Positions 1,893 through 6,303 of a DNA stretch of 32,451 nucleotides are shown here, piece after piece. Both the position numbers and the translations under genes were made by a program. Every line of letters starts with the position of its first letter. Position 1 is the stretch's first letter. This stretch comes from a virus: positions 1 to 32,451 of IMG/VR virus record IMGVR_UViG_3300032087_002866. The stretch is one strand, 5' to 3'. Below the pieces are notes generated by a model. The model did not search any database. It saw only the letters and a list, made by a program, of their open reading frames with translations, and was not told where the DNA came from.

Positions 1893-1900
1893 AATAAATA
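1893..1900 (+). promoter_or_regulatory. T4-late-like promoter box (AATAAATA)
   Basis: AATAAATA lies about 150 bases before the methyltransferase gene at 2050. Transcription from here would produce the structured leader described at 1901-2052. Confidence 0.4.
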
Positions 1901-2052
1901 CTTGTAAGCGAGCATGGGTCATTACACCACCTCCTGCGTGTTTGGTAAGGCTATCTTACGTGCAGTTCTTTCTATGTTTGTGGTGGACATCAATATAAAT
2001 GCCATTTTATATCCTATGTGACTCATGTTCGCCCACTTAAAGGATATAAATG
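1901..2052 (+). promoter_or_regulatory. Structured leader with a potential RBS-sequestering switch
   Basis: Three nested stems can form: CACCAC (1925-1930) with GTGGTG (1980-1985), then CTGC with GCAG, then GTAAG with CTTAC. Downstream, TTTATATCCT (2006-2015) is a perfect 10-base complement of AGGATATAAA (2041-2050), which holds the Shine-Dalgarno sequence and the first base of the start codon at 2050. The same segment can instead pair with ATATAAA (1993-1999). The two pairings exclude each other, as in the expression platform of a translational riboswitch or RNA thermometer. No known riboswitch class is recognised. Confidence 0.5.
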
Positions 2053-3326: not shown

Positions 3327-3518
3327 ACACAGTTAGAGAACTGAAAGGCCTTGTTGTAGACCCTGAGAACAGAGGTGGAAGATGATTTATGTGAGATAGG
3401 CCCCACCGCCTAAGCCTTTGAAAACCTTAGATTTTCACGGTTATCAAGGCGAGAGACGGCTGTATAGCATCAATTTACCACAATGTCAATGGCTTTCTGA
3501 CCAAATCAATTGTGAAAA
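3327..3518 (-). ncRNA. Putative leftward structured small RNA region
   Basis: No credible gene lies here. A near-perfect leftward promoter (3461-3489) would start an RNA near 3454. On the minus strand that RNA can fold into TGAAAA-7-TTTTCA (3437 to 3419), an outer pair AAAGGC/GCCTTT (3419-3414 with 3349-3344) enclosing GGTGG/CCACC, and CAGTT-CTCT-AACTG near 3343-3330. No run of T marks a terminator. The stems are short, so an unstructured leader or trailer remains possible. Confidence 0.4.
3461..3489 (-). promoter_or_regulatory. Near-consensus sigma70 promoter, TTGACA-17-TATACA, leftward
   Basis: On the minus strand TTGACA (3489-3484) and TATACA (3466-3461) are separated by 17 bases. No protein gene follows on that strand before the end of the glycosyltransferase gene, so the product would be a non-coding or antisense RNA. 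Confidence 0.65.
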
Positions 3519-6243: not shown

Positions 6244-6267
6244 TTGTTTCTCCTTTTCTTAACTTTA

Positions 6268-6288
6268 TTTATAAATATTATTTATAAA
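6268..6288. promoter_or_regulatory. Palindrome holding two divergent TATAAATA boxes
   Basis: TTTATAAAT-ATT-ATTTATAAA is a perfect 9-bp inverted repeat. It contains TATAAATA rightward (6270-6277) and leftward (6286-6279). The first serves the glycosyltransferase operon starting at 6304, the second the leftward operon starting at 6243. Both match the T4 late promoter consensus exactly. Confidence 0.6.
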
Positions 6289-6303
6289 GGGGAGATAAAA
6301 CTG

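Follow-up and report, generated by a model that had tools for sequence, protein, structure and literature searches.

A recurrent candidate RNA element behind a putative late-type promoter at accessory genes of small aquatic phages

The methyltransferase locus and its relatives

The window, by which we mean the whole stretch of DNA that was analysed (32,451 nucleotides), is a virus record of 32 kb. It carries genes for a terminase, a portal, a tape measure and tail proteins, and is syntenic with the lake phage DSL-LC06. Its portal protein shares 62% identity with that of DSL-LC06 and ~42% with those of the Pelagibacter phages HTVC111P, 026P, 202P and 112P. A noncoding stretch at 1539-2049, which holds the leader under study, precedes a forward-strand methyltransferase gene (2050-2655; Pfam Methyltransf_23, 2.9e-10) for which orthologs were aligned; its protein, when started at the codon at 2050, opens with MDNHYTDWH, which lines up with the N-terminal ends of most of them. 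The positions given in the initial annotation of this DNA were exact for the complementary segments 2006-2015 and 2041-2050 and for an ATATAAA at 1993-1999, which are taken up below; the ATG is at 2050.

Neither the methyltransferase nor the glycosyltransferase of the window retrieved relatives when used directly as a protein query, and a DNA search of the noncoding region among phage records gave chance matches only. Relatives were instead reached via the adjacent tail gene and via methyltransferase alignments. The four Pelagibacter phages held no convincing copy of the leader element, and in other contigs with the glycosyltransferase the element was absent outside the same phage group. One of the related loci (L110) is filed under a Porticoccaceae MAG (MED754); because its methyltransferase match equals that of the phage contig L031 in identity and coverage, it is probably a phage contig as well. 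Two further noncoding segments of the window recur among relatives. The stretch past the glycosyltransferase gene (3380-3445) is 80-84% identical to L326 and L020, and at 1790-1844 the sequence GTGTTTGAGCGATAGCGAAAACAAGATGTCTGTAAGACATCT is 93% identical in L005 and also shared with L020, with a small hairpin after a conserved box.

Promoter, fold and conservation of the leader

At T4 late promoters, transcription starts 11 nt downstream. An element with T4-late-like geometry, TAAATA, occupies 1895-1900 on the forward strand of the window, from which we infer a transcription start near 1906 (the T of TAAATA + 11) and its direction. Among 32 relatives, 25 have the same hexamer 22-45 nt upstream of the start of the tail gene. 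It also precedes several other window genes, and the distance from its T to the ATG is sharply bimodal, with one class at 11 nt (16 genes) and another at 22-28 nt. Leaderless mRNAs would give a TAAATA-ATG distance of exactly 11 with a start 11 nt past the T. The 16 genes with that spacing, among them L016 7699, L295 6390, L321 6020, L324 5771 and L326 5874, suggest a class of leaderless late phage mRNAs. The stem leader described here would be tied to a putative promoter class from which transcripts begin in one of three ways: without a leader, with a short SD leader, or with a stem leader. Elsewhere in the window, at 6266-6289, TAAATA motifs overlap on both strands between divergent genes and likely form a divergent promoter.

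In the predicted fold of 1906-2075, a 15-bp stem (P1, 1908-1922/2018-2032) has its 5′ end 2 nt past the putative transcription start and encloses the whole leader, including the nested stems P2 and P3 and the hairpin P4. Both arms, GCGAGCATGGGTCAT on the 5′ side and GTGACTCATGTTCGC on the 3′ side of the forward strand, lie at the same offset in orthologs; 13 of the 15 pairs have a predicted probability of ~0.99, and the 3′ arm ends 17 nt before the ATG. Inside P1, the nested stems that had been proposed for 1925-1985 are predicted in the MFE structure as P2 (1925-1930/1980-1985) and P3 (1934-1941/1958-1965), with an ambiguous register for P2 (0.66 versus 0.32); in the short members of the family, neither stood out as a conserved helix. 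The ATATAAA at 1993-1999, previously pointed out as a partner of the same bases that complement the start region, pairs with 2006-2012 in a predicted hairpin (P4, ATATAAA-TGCCAT-TTTATAT, 1993-2012, forward strand; pair probability 0.84-0.98) with UGCCAU (2000-2005) as its loop. The folding energy of the whole leader is unremarkable (z -1.23), and the case for the leader rests on comparison with relatives.

For this comparison, 16 methyltransferase loci were chosen by the protein N-terminal motif alone, with the upstream DNA disregarded; the set includes related sequences (L011/L013/L033 and L015/L337). Directly before the methyltransferase gene, 14 of the 16 loci carry TAAATA and then a strong stem, and at the other two (L314 and L315) the module sits ahead of the preceding gene of the same cluster. 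The P1 sequences differ between loci, yet each arm matches its own partner, with a mean pairing score of 28.8 in the 14 loci compared with 14.6 for arms taken from other loci, where scores of 20 or more occur mostly between close relatives. This pattern indicates that P1 has been kept by compensatory base changes across orthologs. The pair types across 39 elements (427 Watson-Crick, 48 G-U and 17 A-C, with G-U and A-C scored alike) show an excess of G-U over A-C that favours an RNA of the promoter strand, as supporting evidence only, these elements having been partly selected with G-U allowed. The folded domain advanced in the initial annotation thereby stands as a structured, conserved and covarying leader before the methyltransferase RBS, but the stem that encloses it had been overlooked.

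The position of the stem is constrained as well. Among 321 TAAATA sites in ~110 related loci, stems with a score of at least 24 begin at offsets 9-13 after the T at 22 sites, compared with mostly 0-2 per offset elsewhere, and permuted motifs gave fewer matches per site than the real motif. By the T+11 rule, P1 begins between -2 and +3 across members. Members beyond the methyltransferase set passed a filter that already required a stem, TAAATA or TGCCAT; some of the loci overlap one another on a single contig, and unique elements were counted by sequence and not by phylogeny. The family is at least as large as the matches listed in the viral scan indicate. The stem-loop spans 43-178 nt in total across members, with an interior that varies in length and sequence beyond MAFFT alignment. 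Only P1 and the short UGCCAU and UCCU motifs are held in common.

In most gene-proximal members, the stem ends 10-25 nt before the start codon. The module precedes genes for a methyltransferase, for a glycosyltransferase (L005) and for an asparagine synthase (L307), as well as genes whose products belong to no recognised family, and this variety speaks against the shared theme of SAM or a sugar nucleotide that had been drawn from the methyltransferase gene. In several cases, the element comes immediately after an upstream stop codon. In L296 (at 5371), L300, L303 and L449, the next feature is a sigma-70-like promoter and not a gene, an arrangement that fits better with a free-standing RNA or a boundary element, and part of the family may be free-standing RNA with a possible trans role.

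The two loop motifs were conserved beyond expectation. TGCCAT is present in 10 of the 14 methyltransferase leaders (0.53 expected) and TGCCA in 12 (1.5 expected). TCCT was found in 24 leaders from a list of 28, itself chosen partly by the TGCCAT motif, with 31 copies compared with 9.9 in shuffles (maximum 22); the window copy of this second motif is UCCUA at 2012-2016 on the forward strand, predicted unpaired. Both are predicted to be unpaired more than the interior around them, TGCCAT in 27 of the 28 leaders and TCCT in 23 of 24, and they are found in either order.

Accessibility of the ribosome-binding site

The Shine-Dalgarno AGGA and the ATG (2050) of the methyltransferase gene lie at 2041-2052 on the forward strand, with an SD duplex of -5.4 kcal/mol. 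As the initial annotation had observed, TTTATATCCT (2006-2015) is a perfect 10-base complement of AGGATATAAA (2041-2050). None of 2000 dinucleotide-preserving shuffles reaches a 10-nt complement to the last 15 nt of the leader, and the pairing exceeds chance for the window's single sequence, in which it had been chosen after looking. Upon this complement, the initial annotation had built an exclusive switch between SD and anti-SD pairing. The anti-SD helix, however, has a predicted probability of at most 0.008, below 1%; when forced, it lies 4.5 kcal/mol above the MFE and crosses P1. In the MFE structure, the SD is open at 37 °C, and the gap to the anti-SD state remains at 4.5-6.2 kcal/mol throughout 10 to 42 °C, roughly constant in the model, contrary to the behaviour expected from the RNA thermometer that had been suggested.

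Nor is the switch a property of the family. The window leader pairs strongly with the start region that it precedes (-20.6 kcal/mol, z -2.4), as does, by another region, that of L005 (z -2.8), and L319 has a z of -2.3; in most other leaders z is near 0, around or below one standard deviation, and in L006 a 6-bp remnant of the anti-SD pairing is readable. We therefore rejected cis pairing of the motif with its own start region as a general rule, since it is strong in a few leaders only. The covariation in related leaders that had been named as a check on the switch is found in P1, a helix absent from the initial annotation, while the SD pairing itself is not conserved. A coding explanation for the motifs, in which they would read on the reverse strand as SD-like TAGGA-ATGGCA, was judged by eye and also set aside, the frames stopping after a few to ~30 codons and differing from one another.

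P1 itself appears to leave the start region accessible in the window. Opening the RBS costs 2.5 kcal/mol with P1 formed and 11.6 kcal/mol without the P1 5′ arm, and in 14 of 19 leaders the RBS is cheaper to open with P1 than without that arm; we take this as weak support, because losing an arm of any hairpin tends to close neighbouring sequence. The genes behind the element mostly have weak SDs (a mean of ~-2 kcal/mol, with ATG starts), compared with ~-7 kcal/mol for the structural genes of the window.

Three leaders (L015, L009 and L337) are arranged differently from the window and most others in that the RBS is sequestered in the hairpin. An SD-like GGAG and a TTG start, the latter assigned from the reading frame, sit within the P1 3′ arm and take ~20 kcal/mol to open. 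Because both lie inside the arm, P1 would repress in this subset instead. The stem that contains them, GCAAGGGC, is common to the three leaders (L015 5051, L009 8625, L337 7287), whereas the protein family of L009 differs from that of L015 and L337. Leader and start seem, for this reason, to have been exchanged as one unit.

Proposed role and alternative explanations

The computed features, namely the module, its position relative to the promoter, the covariation of P1, the conserved motifs and an RBS that is open in most members, lead us to propose, at about even chances, that the element is the structured 5′ leader of a late-type accessory mRNA, in which the start site is kept open, the 5′ end is protected and a loop motif is offered to a trans factor. 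Transcription would begin ~11 nt past the T of TAAATA, near 1906, and the nascent RNA at or within two to three bases of P1, so that its 5′ end would adjoin or enter the helix. P1 would close ahead of the emergence of the start region and confine P2-P4 to a separate domain, and because the SD and AUG stretch would then stay open, translation would be on by default. The paired 5′ end may slow 5′-end-dependent decay, and slower decay would suit accessory genes that are mostly weak in SD. The conserved, unpaired UGCCAU loop, together with UCCU, is where an RNA-binding factor of phage or host would most likely make contact to tune the open state; a single metabolite ligand is argued against by the unrelated downstream genes. 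More tentatively, we entertain a phage regulatory RNA of a new class: UGCCAU/UCCU, carried on the +1 stem of a late promoter, would be read by a dedicated factor of phage or host and switch an entire set of accessory genes together.

Leaders of the ompA type carry 5′-terminal stabilising stem-loops, and share with the present element a stem at the 5′ end closely ahead of the ribosome site. They differ in that the loop motif is here conserved across loci and coupled to a phage promoter class, and a stability role is here conjectural. One alternative is an element purely for mRNA stability or RNase III processing, in which P1 would do no more than shield or set the 5′ end and the loop motif would have arisen for other reasons. 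It accounts for the length of P1, for its fixed position at the start site and its freedom in sequence, and for the copies found right after an upstream stop codon. We nevertheless regard it as unlikely, as a stability stem alone has no need of UGCCAU and UCCU motifs that are conserved and predicted to be unpaired.

Rather unlikely, too, is a timing device like those of T4 e, soc, I-TevI and mobE, where a hairpin hides the RBS on some transcripts and the accessory gene is translated only late. In the T4 late-gene leaders (e, soc, I-TevI, segB, mobE), the late start removes the 5′ arm of the inhibitory hairpin (PMC3014915; PMC2988022). The likeness to T4 e, soc, I-TevI and segB and to Aeh1 mobE lies in the coupling of a late promoter (TATAAATA in T4; PMC3014915) to a hairpin in the leaders of accessory or late genes (PMC3014915; PMC2988022), and L015, L009 and L337, with SD and TTG start buried in P1 at ~20 kcal/mol, would suit such a device. 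In leaders of the T4 e and I-TevI type, however, the hairpin hides the RBS and the late start drops the 5′ arm, whereas in the listed members of the present family TAAATA precedes the 5′ arm, so late transcripts would keep the full stem, and in the window and most relatives P1 does not include the RBS, which is predicted to be open. In most members, the element is thus unlike the T4 late leaders and resembles instead the hairpin of seg43(25) in Aeromonas phage 25, a very stable structure just upstream of an open RBS, the function of which is undetermined according to a review (PMC2988022). In both, the stem stops directly before the RBS of an accessory gene and does not include it; seg43(25) is a single described case in a T4-like myophage, whereas the present module is recurrent, has a conserved loop motif and belongs to unrelated small siphophages. 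No description of the element was found in the papers searched, most subscription papers being outside reach. The role of hairpins that stop just short of the ribosome site, without covering it, could be examined with this element, and so could the way in which small aquatic phages set the expression of late accessory genes.

The motifs themselves raise the possibility of a trans-acting small RNA, with UGCCAU and UCCUA pairing with the AUGGCA starts and UAGGA SDs of other phage mRNAs. UGCCAU-N4-9-UCCUA is indeed the complement of SD-spacer-AUGGCA, several window start regions rank within the top 1% of targets for this core, and some elements have no gene directly behind them. The motifs, however, come in the opposite order in short members (L275, L297), no one target is clearly ahead of the rest, and the element is found in cis at 16 of 16 methyltransferase loci, all of which makes this reading improbable. 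We consider less probable still an antitermination leader, resembling put or EAR RNA and acting on the RNA polymerase that made it. The element would lie at the extreme 5′ end of the transcript with a conserved loop, and some members occupy operon boundaries; against this, no terminator array was shown downstream in the window, and the likeness to put RNA is one of general position only.

That this leader is a translational riboswitch or thermometer responding to SAM or a nucleotide sugar, as first suggested, has become very unlikely. A structured leader does stand ahead of a SAM-dependent gene, as with the SAM, manA and wcaG RNAs of Rfam, which in aquatic phages or metagenomes are found ahead of genes that use SAM or act on sugars, and the anti-SD state of the window is just 4.5 kcal/mol over the MFE. 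Yet the anti-SD pairing is not conserved, the energy gap lacks temperature dependence, the downstream genes are unrelated, and the variable interior of a 43-178 nt stem-loop holds no conserved aptamer core. Rfam covariance models, including those of SAM, manA, wcaG and RNA thermometers, gave no match at the gathering threshold in the window or in 18 related loci, and permissive E-value scans gave chance matches or none. The element is thus a recurrent candidate RNA, absent from Rfam, of an orphan aquatic phage group related to DSL-LC06. An element acting as DNA, for instance a site at which accessory genes insert or recombine, is highly improbable: inverted repeats do flank variable sequence beside exchangeable accessory genes, and L015 and L009 share a stem sequence while carrying different genes, but the strand asymmetry of G-U over A-C, the exact spacing to the promoter and the single orientation of the loop motifs relative to it all argue otherwise.

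A second, separate candidate noncoding RNA of ~240 nt lies at 1530-1775 of the window (GGTTGTAATATGACGGCTAATGACCC ... CTACTATTGCCGTC), and is conserved in L321, L020, L265, L412 and L379. It has no Rfam match. RNAalifold predicts 53 pairs for it, 14 of them changed on both sides, and a GCCGTC within it is able to pair with either of two GACGGC copies.
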